64,000 bases of DNA from Sphingopyxis macrogoltabida (GTDB lineage Bacteria; Pseudomonadota; Alphaproteobacteria; Sphingomonadales; Sphingomonadaceae), in the NCBI RefSeq assembly GCF_001307295.1, contig NZ_CP012700.1:1243001-1307000 (forward strand), written 5' to 3'. The notes under the pieces were generated by a model. That model was given only the letters and a program-made list of their open reading frames with translations. It had not been told where the DNA came from and did not search any database. Shown here in pieces: positions 4,752-9,342 of this stretch; positions within the stretch are counted from its first letter, which is position 1, and each line of letters starts with the position of its first letter. The translations under genes were made by a program, and so were the position numbers.

Positions 4752-4897
4752 AGAACAAGCAGTCCCCATGTTGGCGCGGCGGGGAATGACCGTCCGGTGG
4801 CAAAGCAGGAGAGCGGGGCCAGCGGGAGTCGCACGCGCAGGTTTATGTTGGCGCCGCCTTACGCCGGGGGTGGGGAAATGCAAGGGGGTGAGGTAAC
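4752..4897. other. Junction between chromosome backbone and acquired island
   Basis: A 146 bp gap upstream of acnA and downstream of the acquired minus-strand operon. It should carry the acnA promoter, but no convincing -35/-10 pair could be assigned. No hairpin-plus-T terminator is visible after the operon, and no direct repeat or attachment site was recognised. Base composition changes from very GC-rich on the acnA side to AT-richer past 4898. Confidence 0.4.
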
Positions 4898-5977
4898 TTA
4901 CAGAAGCCGCATGTTGAGCGAGGAGAAGCCCTGCTTTTCCATTTTCAGATAACGCTTCATGGGTTCCGTAAGATAGACTTTCGTTTTGAGTTGGCCTTCA
5001 TTCAACATCTCGGTTTGATTGGCGACTTCTCTGATTAAAGCCAAAGCCTCATCAGAGACCTGATGTTCTTCCTCGTCGAAGAGTCCGCGCGTCCGCCAAG
5101 TCAGAATTGGCATCGCGCTTTTAGTCGCCTCAAGGCTATCAGGAAAACGGCTATACCAACGACCGCCTAGATCGACGCAATAAGGTCCGTCTTTCTGGCG
5201 AATATAGAAAAACCGCGTTATCGGGCCGCCGAGGCGGGCGGCGGCCAAGTTGTCGATCAAATATAGAATTTTGTGAAGCCGAAACAGTGAGATACTTCCA
5301 TGAATCTTCAGTACTTTCGCCACCACGTTCCAAGAGTTGTCATCACGAATGCTCGTCGAGGCGCGCCGTTTTTTGTTCCCGAGGCGTTTTAGGGTTTCAC
5401 CGACGAAGTAGTAATCGGAAACTTGATTATGAAAACTGCGATGAATCATCGCCCGAGCGCCAGGGTGGTACAAAGGCAAAAGGAGGCGACTATTCCATTT
5501 GTTACTGGTTCTTACAGAATCTCTAAGTGTTAGATCATGATGTTCTATTATCCGCGTAGCTTCAAGGGCGACGCCGCCTAACGTCATAACCAAGGCGGGT
5601 TTGATAAGCTCAATCTGGCGTTGAAGATTATCAACGCAGTTTTCTATTTCCCTCTTCGCGGGAGGAGAGTTGTTTCCCTTTTCGTCCTTTGGGTTACAAA
5701 GGACGGCATTGGTAACGAATATATCTTTTCTCGATATTCCAGCAGTGTCGAGAAGCTTTTCAAAGTTGTCTCCCGACTTGTCACCATGGAAGGGAATGGC
5801 AGTTCGATCGGCGCCGAGCCGCCCCGGCGCCTCGCCGATGAACATCAAGGGAGCTTCAATGCTTCCGTTCGCCCAGCTCAATACCCTGACGCAACCTTCC
5901 ATGCGGGCGCATTTTCGACAGGCGGATACGTCGTCTACCAACTTATCAAATTCAATTTCCGAGAACGTCGTCAGCAT
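4898..5977 (-). CDS. Family 4-type uracil-DNA glycosylase fused to a C-terminal Panacea-like domain
   Basis: Residues about 15-205 are a family-4 (FeS) uracil-DNA glycosylase-like domain. It has Cys20 and Cys23 (CRKC), motif GEAPGR at 48-53 with IPFHG, Cys94 in TNAVLCNP, Cys114 in EIENC, and a YHPGAR motif that corresponds to the second uracil-pocket motif. Residues about 210-359 are an added domain. Its [13 protein letters not shown] helix and following [16 protein letters not shown] segment resemble the Panacea/SocA (DUF4065) fold; that part is tentative. The ATG at 5977 overlaps the end of the upstream thymidylate-synthase-like gene by 26 bases, which argues for translational coupling. Codon use is AT-richer than the flanks. 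Last gene of the island operon. Confidence 0.8.
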
Positions 5978-6314
5978 AACGTCGCTGAAGGCCTTTCGAC
6001 AAAGATATGTGAGGGTGCAGTGAAACCACTTGCGTCGCCTCATAACGGCGACCGCTGTGCCGAGCAACAAACTGACCAAGTCTCTGTAATGCTATGAGAT
6101 TTCCAAGAGCCTTGGCGCTGTAGTCGTGCGAACGATAAAGGGCGACTAGATCGAGTCGACCTCGCGAGTGTGGTCGAAACTGAAGATACTGGAGGCAAGG
6201 GCTTCCACGAGTTCGGAATGTGTCAGTTGGTCGAAAATTGTGGAGATACAAGGCTGCTTGAACGTCATTGGGCCAAGTTAGAAGCTTATGGATCAAGTTA
6301 GCGTCCGCGCTCGT
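5952..6314 (-). pseudogene. Thymidylate-synthase-like protein, C-terminal part (separated by IS insertion)
   Basis: This is the downstream half of the gene that begins at 8116. Reading from the IS edge, the frame runs without a stop to TGA at 5952. It contains the thymidylate synthase superfamily signatures: a nucleophile motif GSPCLQYLQF (compare PCHxxFQF of ThyA) and ALYRSHDYSAKALGNLIALQ (compare QRSxDxxLGxPFN). Together these mark a member of the ThyA / dCMP hydroxymethylase superfamily. The divergent sequence places it in an uncharacterised branch. Its last 26 bases overlap the start of the UDG gene. Without its N-terminal half it has no start codon of its own. Confidence 0.75.
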
Positions 6315-6343
6315 GGTGTAATTTCCGGTGTAGGCGATGGTGT

Positions 6344-6375
6344 ATTCCGGGGTGGGGCATGCCCCACCCCGGAAT
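6344..6375. repeat. Perfect 32 bp palindrome inside the IS, upstream of the transposase
   Basis: Sixteen bases starting ATTCCGGGGTGGGG are followed directly by their exact reverse complement, giving a stem with no unpaired bases. It sits between the left inverted repeat and the transposase start. It may act as a terminator or translation block that shields the transposase from outside transcription, or as a cruciform. There is no T-tract, so intrinsic termination is uncertain. Confidence 0.85.
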
Positions 6376-6453
6376 GCGGCGTCGCTGGTGGCCACCGGGT
6401 TCATCGTTATGGTGGAGTTTGCACACTTCAACCGTGACGAAGAGGAGTTCCCG

Positions 6454-7668
6454 ATGACCGAGGACAGATTACTGATCGAAGAGCTGGCTGCAAAGGGCGG
6501 CCAACCGGATTTTTTGCGCACCATCGCCGAGAACGTGCTGCAGCTGATCATGGAGGCCGACGTTGATGGCCTGATCGGCGCGGGTCGCCACGAACGCAGC
6601 AGCGAGCGCGCGACCTGGCGCAACGGCTATCGCGACCGTTCGCTGGATACCCGGGTAGGCACGCTGAACCTGAAAATCCCCAAGCTGCGTGCTGGGTCCT
6701 ATTTTCCGGGCTTCCTTGAGCCCCGCAAGATGGTCGAGAAAGCGCTGGTTGCGGTGATCCAGGAAGCGTGGATCGGCGGGGTCAGCACCCGGCGGGTCGA
6801 TGAACTCGTCCAGGCCATGGGCATGACCGGCATCTCCAAGTCCACCGTCTCCAAGCTTTGCAAGGACATTGACGAGCGCGTCCATGCCTTTCTGAAACGC
6901 CCGCTCACCGGCGAATGGCCGTATCTCTGGCTCGATGCCACCTATCTCAAGGTACGCGAAGGCGGGCGGATCATCAGCGTTGCCGCAATAATCGCCATGG
7001 CCGTCAACACCGAGGGCCGGCGCGAGATCGTCGGCCTGCATATCGGCCCCTCGGAAGCGGAGGTCTTCTGGTCCGACTTCCTGAAGGACCTTGTTCGGCG
7101 CGGTCTTACCGGCGTGAAGCTGGTCATCTCCGATGCTCACGAGGGCCTCAAGGGCGCGATCACCCGCGTCATGGGCGCCACCTGGCAGCGCTGCCGGGTG
7201 CACTTCATGCGCAATGCCCTGTCCTATGTGCCCAAGGGCCAGAACACTGTCGTCGCCGCCGCGATCCGCCAGGTCTTCCTGCAGCCCGATCAGAAAAGCG
7301 CAACGCAGGTCTGGCGACAGGTCGCCGACCAGTTGCGCACCCGTTGGCCCAAGCTCGGCGCCTGCATGGACGAGGCCGAAACCGACGTGCTCGCCTACAC
7401 CGGCTTCCCCACCCAGCACCGCACGAAGTTACACTCAACCAATCCGCTCGAGCGGCTCAACAAGGAGGTCAAGCGCCGCGCCGACGTCGTCGGAATCTTC
7501 CCGAACGAAGACAGCATCATCCGCCTCGTCGGGGCTGTGCTGATGGAGCAGAACGACGAGTGGCAGCTCCAGCACCGATACATGCAGATCGAAGGCATGG
7601 CCGAACTCAACCAACCCATGATCGAGGAGGAAAATCAGCCCCTACACATCACCGCCAAAGCCGCCTGA
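6454..7668 (+). CDS. IS256-family transposase
   Basis: A DDE transposase of 404 residues that catalyses movement of the surrounding IS. The catalytic acidic residues lie in LWLDATYLK, in VISDAHEGLK and in NPLERLNKEVKRR, with the usual helical insertion between the second Asp and the Glu. The ATG at 6454 is preceded by GAGGAG at a good distance; the upstream in-frame ATGs at 6337 and 6409 lack a comparable site and would add terminal-repeat sequence. It appears intact, so the element may still be mobile. Confidence 0.93.
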   Translation: MTEDRLLIEELAAKGGQPDFLRTIAENVLQLIMEADVDGLIGAGRHERSSERATWRNGYRDRSLDTRVGTLNLKIPKLRAGSYFPGFLEPRKMVEKALVAVIQEAWIGGVSTRRVDELVQAMGMTGISKSTVSKLCKDIDERVHAFLKRPLTGEWPYLWLDATYLKVREGGRIISVAAIIAMAVNTEGRREIVGLHIGPSEAEVFWSDFLKDLVRRGLTGVKLVISDAHEGLKGAITRVMGATWQRCRVHFMRNALSYVPKGQNTVVAAAIRQVFLQPDQKSATQVWRQVADQLRTRWPKLGACMDEAETDVLAYTGFPTQHRTKLHSTNPLERLNKEVKRRADVVGIFPNEDSIIRLVGAVLMEQNDEWQLQHRYMQIEGMAELNQPMIEEENQPLHITAKAA

Positions 7669-7700
7669 CGATGGCCCACGGCCACAGCCGAAATTACACC

Positions 7701-8116
7701 ACCTTGACGGACGCGACCTGGATCAACGCCGCCAATTTGTTATCCCCGAACTCGACTCGTGTTCCGTTCCCGAGAACGGATGATCCCACGAGCCGTTCGA
7801 AATAGGTGTGTTGCCATTGGCTAAATTTGCGGCCTCGTCGACGGCCTCTGCCAAATAGGTTTAGCCCGGCTTCGGTTGCTTCAGCCACAGTTCCTGCGTG
7901 GCGCTCAACCACAGCGGGAAGAAGCATGTTGGCGACGGATGACGGCGTCTCGGTTCGAACCGCCCTCGCGGCCGCGTCAACACGTCTAAGGTCGGCCGCC
8001 GTAAACTCAGACGCGCCGCTCGCGCTGAGCGTCAGAATGTATGGCGCATTGTTTCCGAGGAGCAAATCGCTCGCACTACGCCATGCGGTAACAATGTCGG
8101 GTTCGGAAATATCCAT
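7701..8116 (-). pseudogene. Thymidylate-synthase-like protein, N-terminal part (interrupted by IS)
   Basis: The first ~138 codons of a gene cut by the IS at 7700; the frame then runs only two codons into the IS before TAA. The sequence SSVANMLLPAVV followed by FSQWQHTYFERLVG matches the N-terminal region of an uncharacterised thymidylate-synthase-like family, and the catalytic half lies beyond the IS at 6314-5952. The start ATG at 8116 comes 1 bp after the mazG stop. The two halves are not in one frame if simply rejoined: the N part ends two bases into a codon while the C part resumes at a codon start, consistent with loss of a few bases at insertion. Confidence 0.75.
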
Positions 8117-8117
8117 A

Positions 8118-8969
8118 TCACTTCATCGTGTAGGTTATAGTTTTTCTTTTCCTATTTATCCTTATTATTCCTCCGCTGTTCCTAACCAATTTGTCATAAC
8201 ATCTAAATCCAAAGGATATTGCGTCAAACCAGTCGGAAATACTTCTAGAATTAACTTCTAGGCCGCTTGTCATCGTTTTTATCGTTTGTCCGATAGTAAA
8301 AGGAATATTTCCCCTGTCGGAAAATGATGAAACTCCGTTTGCAGATATTTTGTTCTGGTTGAAGACAAAAACGCTAATACCTTCTTCTAAGAAAATCGAA
8401 CGAGCGCCGTCCTCGACGCGATCTATCTCCGGATTGTAGCGCCTCTTTGCATTCATCAGTTTTCTGAAAACAGGTGACCAGCCTAACTTCGCGACGTAAG
8501 CCAAATGGAACACGTCATGGAAGCGGTACCCATCGTCGATGTAGGCATTGTCATCTAACGAGTCCCCTAAATCTCTTCCTTCGAACTCAATTCGCACTCG
8601 CCCATCTTTCGGATTTTGGTGAAAAACGAACTCGCCCTTTTCCGGTAAACGCTGATCGTGAGGCGATTTTTCATCGAAGTCGCGCTTGTCATCGGAAAAA
8701 AGATACAGCGTCTTCACGAGATTATCAGATGCGATCTGAGAAAGTTTAAGATCACAATATGAAGCAACAGCGGAGAGATACCAGAGCGTGTCTCCTAGCT
8801 CTGTAGCGATCTCCTTTTTGACAACATCAGGGGTTTTGTTGTCGCGCTTTATCTTCTTTATAGAGCTTGCAACGCTTCCGGCTTCTCCGAGTAAGCCAAG
8901 GGTAAGGACTTCAATATCGTCAGTCCTGAGCGTTTTCGAGCATAGATTCTGATATCTGTCTAATTCCAT
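8118..8969 (-). CDS. MazG-family nucleotide pyrophosphohydrolase with MazG C-terminal domain
   Basis: All-alpha NTP pyrophosphohydrolase, expected to cleave (d)NTPs to NMP and pyrophosphate. Residues 1-90 form the MazG fold with GLLGEAGSVASSIKK (25-39) and EIATELGDTLWYL (53-65). The ExxD pair of the second motif (Glu57, Asp60) is intact, but the first motif is E29-A-G-S32, where the family normally has a second Glu. Residues about 100-283 match the MazG C-terminal domain, with DNAYIDDGYRFHDVFHLAYV and LGWSPV. The AT-rich codon use is foreign to the region. Start ATG at 8969 follows a good promoter. First gene of the island operon. Confidence 0.88.
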   Translation of the reverse strand: MELDRYQNLCSKTLRTDDIEVLTLGLLGEAGSVASSIKKIKRDNKTPDVVKKEIATELGDTLWYLSAVASYCDLKLSQIASDNLVKTLYLFSDDKRDFDEKSPHDQRLPEKGEFVFHQNPKDGRVRIEFEGRDLGDSLDDNAYIDDGYRFHDVFHLAYVAKLGWSPVFRKLMNAKRRYNPEIDRVEDGARSIFLEEGISVFVFNQNKISANGVSSFSDRGNIPFTIGQTIKTMTSGLEVNSRSISDWFDAISFGFRCYDKLVRNSGGIIRINRKRKTITYTMK

Positions 8970-9342
8970 ATCCGTTCCGCCCCCTGCGTCAGATAGAGAG
9001 ATTTATATTTTCCTATACTTAGAACATCAAGCCCGCTGCTGATGAGGGCCATAGCGTATTTCCCCTCTTTCCTACATTATCCAAATAGGTTCAAAATCAC
9101 TCCGATTCATTCCAAGTGATTCGGGAGATGGAGTTATGGGGCGTAAAATGGCGCGGGGTTCGCGGGGGAAATCGGGAGGTGTGGCTGCGGCTTCAGGCAG
9201 CGGTGAAGGCCGGAACAGGCCCTCCCGTGGTCGGGGCCACGGGTCTCCGATCGCCCCCTCCCGCAAGCGGGAGGGGAGCAACGCGCGTGGCGCCGCCGGG
9301 CCCTGGATCAAGTCCGGGGTGCGCGAGCGCGAGAATCCCTTC
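8970..9342. other. Gap holding the island promoter and two palindromic repeats
   Basis: The left part (8970-9110) is AT-rich and holds the mazG promoter. The right part returns to high GC and holds repeat-derived sequence: a perfect hairpin CCCCTCCCGC-AA-GCGGGAGGGG at 9255-9276, then at about 9300-9322 one arm of the chromosome's GGATCAAGTCCGGGG repeat. An open frame runs through it from 9136 but is most likely repeat read-through. Confidence 0.6.
9002..9030 (-). promoter_or_regulatory. Predicted sigma70-type promoter of the mazG-TS-UDG operon
   Basis: Read on the minus strand: TTGATG (9030-9025), a 17 bp spacer, then TATAAA (9007-9002). The predicted start of transcription is about 25-30 bases upstream of the mazG ATG at 8969. 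Only one base in each box differs from, or one beyond, the consensus TTGACA/TATAAT. This is unusually strong for this GC-rich chromosome. Confidence 0.65.

Follow-up and report, generated by a model that had tools for sequence, protein, structure and literature searches.

A rare, mobile MazG, thymidylate-synthase-like and uracil-DNA-glycosylase operon, most likely anti-phage, is split by an IS256-family element in Sphingopyxis macrogoltabida

Two recent reports supply the closest described systems for a locus that joins nucleotide metabolism to DNA base excision. The first (PMC13160076) describes the Brig glycosylases, which act on modified phage DNA, and BapA, which removes glucose for Brig3. 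The second (DefensePredictor; PMC13092281) presents validated defense systems with domains including thymidylate synthase (TS) and 5-hydroxymethyluracil kinase, and lists MazG, MazG-C and, in the legend to its Fig. 6F, uracil-DNA glycosylase (UDG) among systems that were predicted but not validated. Here, we analyze a stretch of 64,000 nucleotides from Sphingopyxis macrogoltabida (contig NZ_CP012700.1, positions 1,243,001 to 1,307,000; the whole stretch is hereafter the window), in which a mazG gene, a TS-like gene, and a UDG gene with a C-terminal Panacea-like domain lie in tandem beside acnA. The best explanation, to which we assign a probability of roughly 0.5, is a horizontally spread anti-phage operon built on nucleotide chemistry and inactive in this genome through an IS256-family element that splits its middle gene.

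By analogy, the Brig glycosylases come closest to a working precedent for this operon. Brig1, Brig2, and Brig3 share with it a UDG-superfamily glycosylase that excises a noncanonical phage base, an activity that we propose here, and Brig3 likewise works from an operon with a partner, BapA. The present locus differs, at the level of description rather than sequence, in that a family-4/5-like UDG is fused to a Panacea-like domain and accompanied by two nucleotide-pool enzymes. The DefensePredictor systems have the same domain vocabulary and general idea; a MazG-TS-UDG-Panacea operon is not described in the sections and legends examined, but its figures may already show this operon or one close to it. 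The preliminary description of this DNA had called the set a candidate undescribed operon and had not recognized it as a named defense system. PADLOC-DB 2.0.0 likewise names none of the four window proteins (the sole match was SIR2 to the UDG at E=0.026, and the intact Variovorax TS-like protein had none); the word undescribed must be softened, since PMC13092281 already lists MazG, MazG-C, and UDG among predictions. In the open-licence literature, we recognized no description of the MazG-TS-UDG set and found nothing on TS-fold hydroxylases.

The features of the locus, in window coordinates, are as follows.

4898 to 5977, minus strand: UDG with a C-terminal Panacea/SocA-like domain, 359 amino acids (aa); Pfam matches, family 4/5 fold, four conserved Cys.
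5952 to 6288, minus strand: C-terminal part of the TS-like gene; retains counterparts of ThyA's Cys, Arg, Asp, and Asn, TIGR03283 below cut-off.
6289 to 6296, no strand: target-site duplication TGGATCAA, copy 2, 8 bp.
6297 to 7718, plus strand: IS256-family element, 1,422 bp, with a transposase open reading frame (ORF) at 6337 to 7668 (NF033543, E=4e-104).
7719 to 7726, no strand: target-site duplication TGGATCAA, copy 1, 8 bp.
7719 to 8116, minus strand: N-terminal part of the TS-like gene; the ORF at 7694 to 8116 matches the TS-like profile (E=1.2e-7).
8118 to 8969, minus strand: mazG, MazG domain plus MazG_C, 283 aa (PF18722, PF03819).
9002 to 9030, minus strand: promoter-like TTGATG-N17-TATAAA, read by eye and not listed by the scan.
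4898 to 9066, no strand: low-GC foreign segment with the GC-rich insertion sequence (IS) inside, running from acnA to a flank shared with some congeners, as delimited by congener alignments and guanine-cytosine (GC) content.

The coordinates bear out the tight packing noted in the preliminary description: a single base, 8117, separates mazG from the TS-like start at 8116, and the UDG start (5977) and the TS-like stop (5952) overlap by 26 bases. Its observation that the block is AT-richer than its surroundings likewise holds, at a GC fraction of 0.43 for mazG, 0.49 for the UDG gene, and 0.51 to 0.58 for the TS-like pieces versus 0.655 for the window. The three-gene minus-strand unit that it describes has the proposed order, strand, and families, but the TS-like gene is not a single frame. 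The IS256-family element at 6297 to 7718 divides it and is flanked on both sides by the 8-bp duplication; the N-terminal ORF runs 25 bases into the IS, and the two halves align separately to intact relatives, 7719 to 8116 with residues 1 to ~127 and 5952 to 6288 with residues ~128 to the end. The operon is therefore probably not working, and we regard this copy, on its sequence, as probably dead. The insertion looks recent, because all 19 full-length copies of the element in the genome, this one included, are reported as 100% identical. These copies are spread over C1, C2, and C4 of the genome, which resembles a recent burst. Upstream of mazG, the single good promoter that had been claimed is plausible by eye (TTGATG-N17-TATAAA at 9030 to 9002) but not confirmed: a consensus scan, whose rule demands T as the last −10 base, gave no hit around 9000 (a single site across the region versus 2.5 expected from shuffles).

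The MazG protein reaches 196.1 bits against PF18722 (MazG_C; cut-off 29.7; E=5.4e-58) and 20.5 bits against PF03819 (MazG; cut-off 22; E=5.8e-4). The UDG matches PF03167 above cut-off (E=2.5e-27, 96 bits), carries four Cys, and is modeled as a member of the UDG superfamily with a family 4/5 fold. It falls short of both NCBIfam family-4 cut-offs (92.8 versus 250 and 88.5 versus 125.3 bits) and is thus a relative of that family and not an equivalog; compared with family 4/5 uracil-DNA glycosylases (4zbx, 1ui0, and 2d3y), it is set apart by a motif and by its C-terminal Panacea-like extension. That extension is a weak match to SocA_Panacea (25.4 bits versus a cut-off of 25.7), and precomputed PF13274 matches occur on many of the 120 UDG relatives listed. 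When 8,000 candidates from a protein collection were scored with a profile of the UDG-Panacea fusion, 2,792 proteins had E<=1e-40; the TS-like profile retrieved 710 at E<=1e-10. Among the 120 TS-like proteins listed, 26 match the 120 listed UDGs in the exact size of the longest contig, versus 0 to 3 in eight shifted controls.

In ThyA, a Cys, an Arg, an Asp, and an Asn serve in catalysis and dUMP binding. All four are invariant across 44 TS-like relatives, align to those of ThyA by hhalign, and persist in the C-terminal part of the window gene. That part matches TIGR03283 below cut-off (E=5e-10), and the Pfam Thymidylat_synt cut-off of 24.3 bits is reached neither by it (14.2) nor by the TS-like proteins of loci L030 (21.3) and L202 (18.8). 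The window protein differs from its relatives at Gly106 and near Cys216/Ser218. A structural model of the TS-like protein fits pyrimidine-nucleotide hydroxylase or hydroxymethylase structures slightly better than ThyA; it is a candidate TS-fold nucleotide hydroxymethylase or hydroxylase, its predicted fold match to these enzymes being at least equal to that with ThyA.

Support for the operon as a unit comes from its recurrence. Five of the 80 MazG loci examined (the best 80 of 85 relatives of the window MazG) have a UDG-Panacea gene after MazG: L005 and L030 (Variovorax), L031 (Fibrella), L041 (a Burkholderiales metagenome-assembled genome [MAG]), and L048 (a Nitrospira MAG). In each, MazG, TS-like, and UDG genes are intact and follow in that order on one strand. 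A sixth intact operon of the same order, G1215, was found through the UDG profile independently of MazG in the order sample of Variovorax sp. J22P168. Together with the window, the order MazG-TS-UDG holds in 7/7 genome-borne UDG-Panacea fusions (five of them found via MazG), so that the TS-like gene lies between its two partners, an arrangement that the preliminary description had asked to be checked. Because the same three genes stand in the same order in six other genomes, they co-occur more than chance would allow. Chance juxtaposition within an island could appeal to the split state of the window copy and to its divergent MazG, 36 to 39% identical to those of the other five operons; the intact operons refute it, and we give it next to no weight. 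One further locus, L038, has mazG followed by a TS-like gene in which the contig ends; it may be another operon and was left out of the count.

Several observations count against this picture. The linkage test is biased, in that 5/7 operons were retrieved via MazG and only G1215 independently. In a MazG tree built from 64 of 82 sequences, selected by length (230 to 420 aa), the UDG-type MazG proteins do not form a single clade, and the window protein is a very long branch. We had also considered co-inheritance from identity matrices and dropped it as evidence, for the similarity of the matrices depends on two close pairs. Given the lack of one MazG clade and this dependence, the operon may have arisen more than once or swapped its mazG. 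The three-gene unit is real, conserved, and mobile, and we read it as horizontally spread.

The operon is rare among genomes. We searched six overlapping samples with the UDG profile at E limits of 1e-30 to 1e-80 and recovered full fusions in 1/385 genomes of the class and 1/398 of the phylum of the window genome (both its own copy), 2/61 of the genus and 2/399 of the order of G386, 1/345 of the class of G387, and 1/245 of the phylum of G389; across all six, G1215 was the only new fusion. A second UDG match in the class sample of the window genome, G238, is a 219-aa UDG frame lacking Panacea, with no TS-like or MazG gene on the 2.1 kb inspected, and was not counted as a fusion.

Such a distribution bears on the possibility that the genes serve housekeeping, namely nucleotide-pool clean-up and uracil repair riding on mobile DNA. 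MazG, TS, and UDG families do include housekeeping members, and the family matches agree with such kinship. A canonical ThyA (PF00303 over cut-off), however, is encoded elsewhere in 6/7 operon genomes, the exception being the Nitrospira MAG G389, where none was found; MazG_C was found in 0/14 control genomes and once in the window genome. The preliminary description had named rare co-occurrence of the three genes, or co-occurrence solely in housekeeping thymidine pathways, as grounds for refutation; neither is borne out by the genomes examined, although retrieval via MazG skews the linkage. Patchy distribution, low GC, and a variable insertion site likewise speak against housekeeping, which we consider quite improbable.

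The variability of the site emerged from 15 same-genus genomes with acnA, of which 10 were compared at length. The segment 4898 to 9064 is aligned by 0/10 congeners, and the acnA-side alignment ends at 4888 to 4897 in 10/10. In three of the 10 (L191, L193, and L195), the far flank (from 9065 to 9067) is present, separated by different intervening DNA of ~2.6, 1.0, and 2.7 kb. Genes found there encode a 764-aa protein that weakly matches nucleoside deoxyribosyltransferase and nSTAND3 and two AAA proteins, one of 277 aa and the other in PADLOC family HEC-04 (E=2e-51). We read the acnA site, from these alignments, as a variable slot that would receive partly defense-like genes. The preliminary description had asked whether such loci fall in defense islands; defense-like or variable genes do surround both the window site and a number of the intact operons. 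A defense role for the operon is, in our judgment, probable.

A phage or plasmid origin was considered and rejected, as no match covered at least 80% of the UDG fusion in the 166 plasmid and 25 phage records with a hit. MazG reached 80% coverage in 0/133 phage records and in 26/36 plasmid records, and the TS-like profile confirmed 0/24 candidate viral stretches. Among the best 80 of 449 viral relatives of the UDG profile (27 to 39% identity, six extending beyond query residue 220 of 367), neighboring TS-like and Panacea-like genes numbered 0 each, MazG 1 (L165), and HMUDK 1.

HMUDK, which by its Pfam name we take to be a 5-hydroxymethyl-dU DNA kinase, bears on the possible chemistry. The 80 MazG_C loci were examined up to 8 kb on each side, some being cut short by contig ends, and neighboring domains were named from one representative per cluster (that of the acyl carrier protein [ACP] had no Pfam match and was named after plasmid annotation). 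Over whole loci, HMUDK occurs in 61 and the TS-like gene in 39; within 7 kb, clusters of ImmA (33), Nmad2 (33), ThsB-like (29), ACP-like (16), and SLOG (15) proteins recur, and the TS-like gene shares 31 loci with ImmA and two with Nmad2. The MazG_C-HMUDK clusters resemble the operon in MazG_C and in a related TS-like enzyme, but the UDG-type operons have no HMUDK: 0/5, and none in the fetched stretches of L202 and the window. Three other loci have a second, small UDG-superfamily gene beside MazG_C (L001, 10787 to 11455; L055, 1917 to 2558; L078, 9083 to 9748) and again no HMUDK. L078 matches PF03167 (E=9e-7), L001 has no Pfam match, and L055 is supported by profile only; the trio aligns with the window UDG family at E=2.6e-5 (hhalign). 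A relaxed scan of the full set of 80 loci (E<=0.5), confined to the two UDG profiles and not extended to other UDG families, returned those eight loci and no more. HMUDK is therefore found in 0/8 glycosylase loci versus 61/72 others (Fisher p=2.6e-6, a guide only, as the rows are related). One slot might thus be taken by either a kinase or a DNA glycosylase, as if the two were alternatives. The idea that DUF1643 genes also belong to the UDG superfamily was unsupported (hhalign E of 0.25 and 0.55) and left out of this strict count; with them, the figures would be 0/11 versus 61/69 (Fisher 7e-9). They lie right after MazG_C in L033 (8945 to 9427) and L044 (8710 to 9177) and elsewhere in the L020 locus.

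The MazG_C neighborhoods present further arrangements. On plasmid L090 (3296 to 8218), helix-turn-helix (HTH), ImmA, TS, HMUDK, and MazG_C genes are consecutive, with AcpS on the opposite strand and ABC-three-component genes adjoining. Plasmid L092 (1436 to 6310) is similar by annotation (HTH, ImmA/IrrE, TS-like, nucleotide kinase, MazG_C, and holo-ACP synthase) and adjoins a SIR2 gene. An annotated acyl carrier protein adjoins MazG_C in plasmid L091 (6608 to 6859). In seven Bacteroidota loci (L006, L008, L010, L012, L021, L026, and L047), MazG_C is accompanied by consecutive ThsB-like/TIR, SLOG, HMUDK, and Nmad2 genes. Genes resembling dCTP deaminase (DCD) adjoin the MazG-TS-UDG operon in L031 (10574 to 11416) and MazG_C in L045 (8918 to 9832), and a single long frame in L067 (5952 to 8672) matches MazG_C and HMUDK, a possible fusion.

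The preliminary description had offered, as one possible joint role, that the operon alters the dUTP/dTTP pool and then attacks uracil-containing invading DNA. The sequences give no indication of a changed ratio, and comparison of the loci favors a 5-modified deoxyuridine over plain uracil. That a 5-substituted deoxyuridine is the common currency of the operon is a tentative proposal that falls just short of an even bet. The TS-like protein would act at the 5-position of deoxyuridine monophosphate, adding or, in reverse, stripping a hydroxy or hydroxymethyl group, and MazG-MazG_C would hydrolyze nucleoside triphosphates, setting the supply of unusual deoxynucleotides to polymerases in the healthy cell. 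The UDG would then remove the unusual pyrimidine, or the uracil remaining after stripping, from replicating phage DNA, and the resulting abasic sites would halt phage replication, while the Panacea-like tail may restrain the glycosylase or sense infection. A fuller modular scheme is conceivable but doubtful: MazG_C and a TS-fold 5-position enzyme would write or unmask marked deoxyuridine in invading DNA, and a swappable enzyme would act on the mark, a 5-hydroxymethyl-dU DNA kinase in most lineages and a dedicated UDG here, in a "write, then excise" immunity.

One alternative is a type-IV-like mechanism directed at phages that carry modified thymine, in which MazG and the TS-like enzyme would revert phage deoxynucleoside tri- and monophosphates to the uracil form and the UDG would destroy the DNA. 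MazG on the triphosphate and the TS-like enzyme on the monophosphate could act in series, and PMC13160076 provides a parallel in the Brig glycosylases, which target modified phage DNA, and in BapA, which strips glucose for Brig3. The HMUDK-bearing relatives, however, seem to resemble a making rather than an unmaking pathway. We know of no TS-fold enzyme that operates in reverse in defense, and we hold this alternative to be unlikely. About as improbable, in our estimation, is a toxin-antitoxin-like or abortive arrangement in which triggered TS-like and UDG proteins would kill the cell by making abasic sites in its DNA, with MazG, the Panacea domain, or both as antidote. The Panacea-like domain is present, RelE-like and DUF5615/PIN-like genes lie on the G1215 contig, and PMC10440598 hypothesizes a mainly sensory function for Panacea; against this, the domain scores below its threshold in the proteins of the window, L041, and L202, and the operon has no separate toxin gene and no sign of toxicity.

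We conclude that the locus preserves a rare, mobile three-gene system that is most likely anti-phage, a new variant of nucleotide-based defense that is broken in the window genome. If this is true, the alternation of kinase and glycosylase predicts a base shared by both, and a testable role would emerge for MazG_C and for many bacterial TS-like and 5-hydroxymethyl-dU-kinase genes outside phages. Glycosylase-based immunity of the Brig kind would then include a version equipped with nucleotide chemistry of its own.

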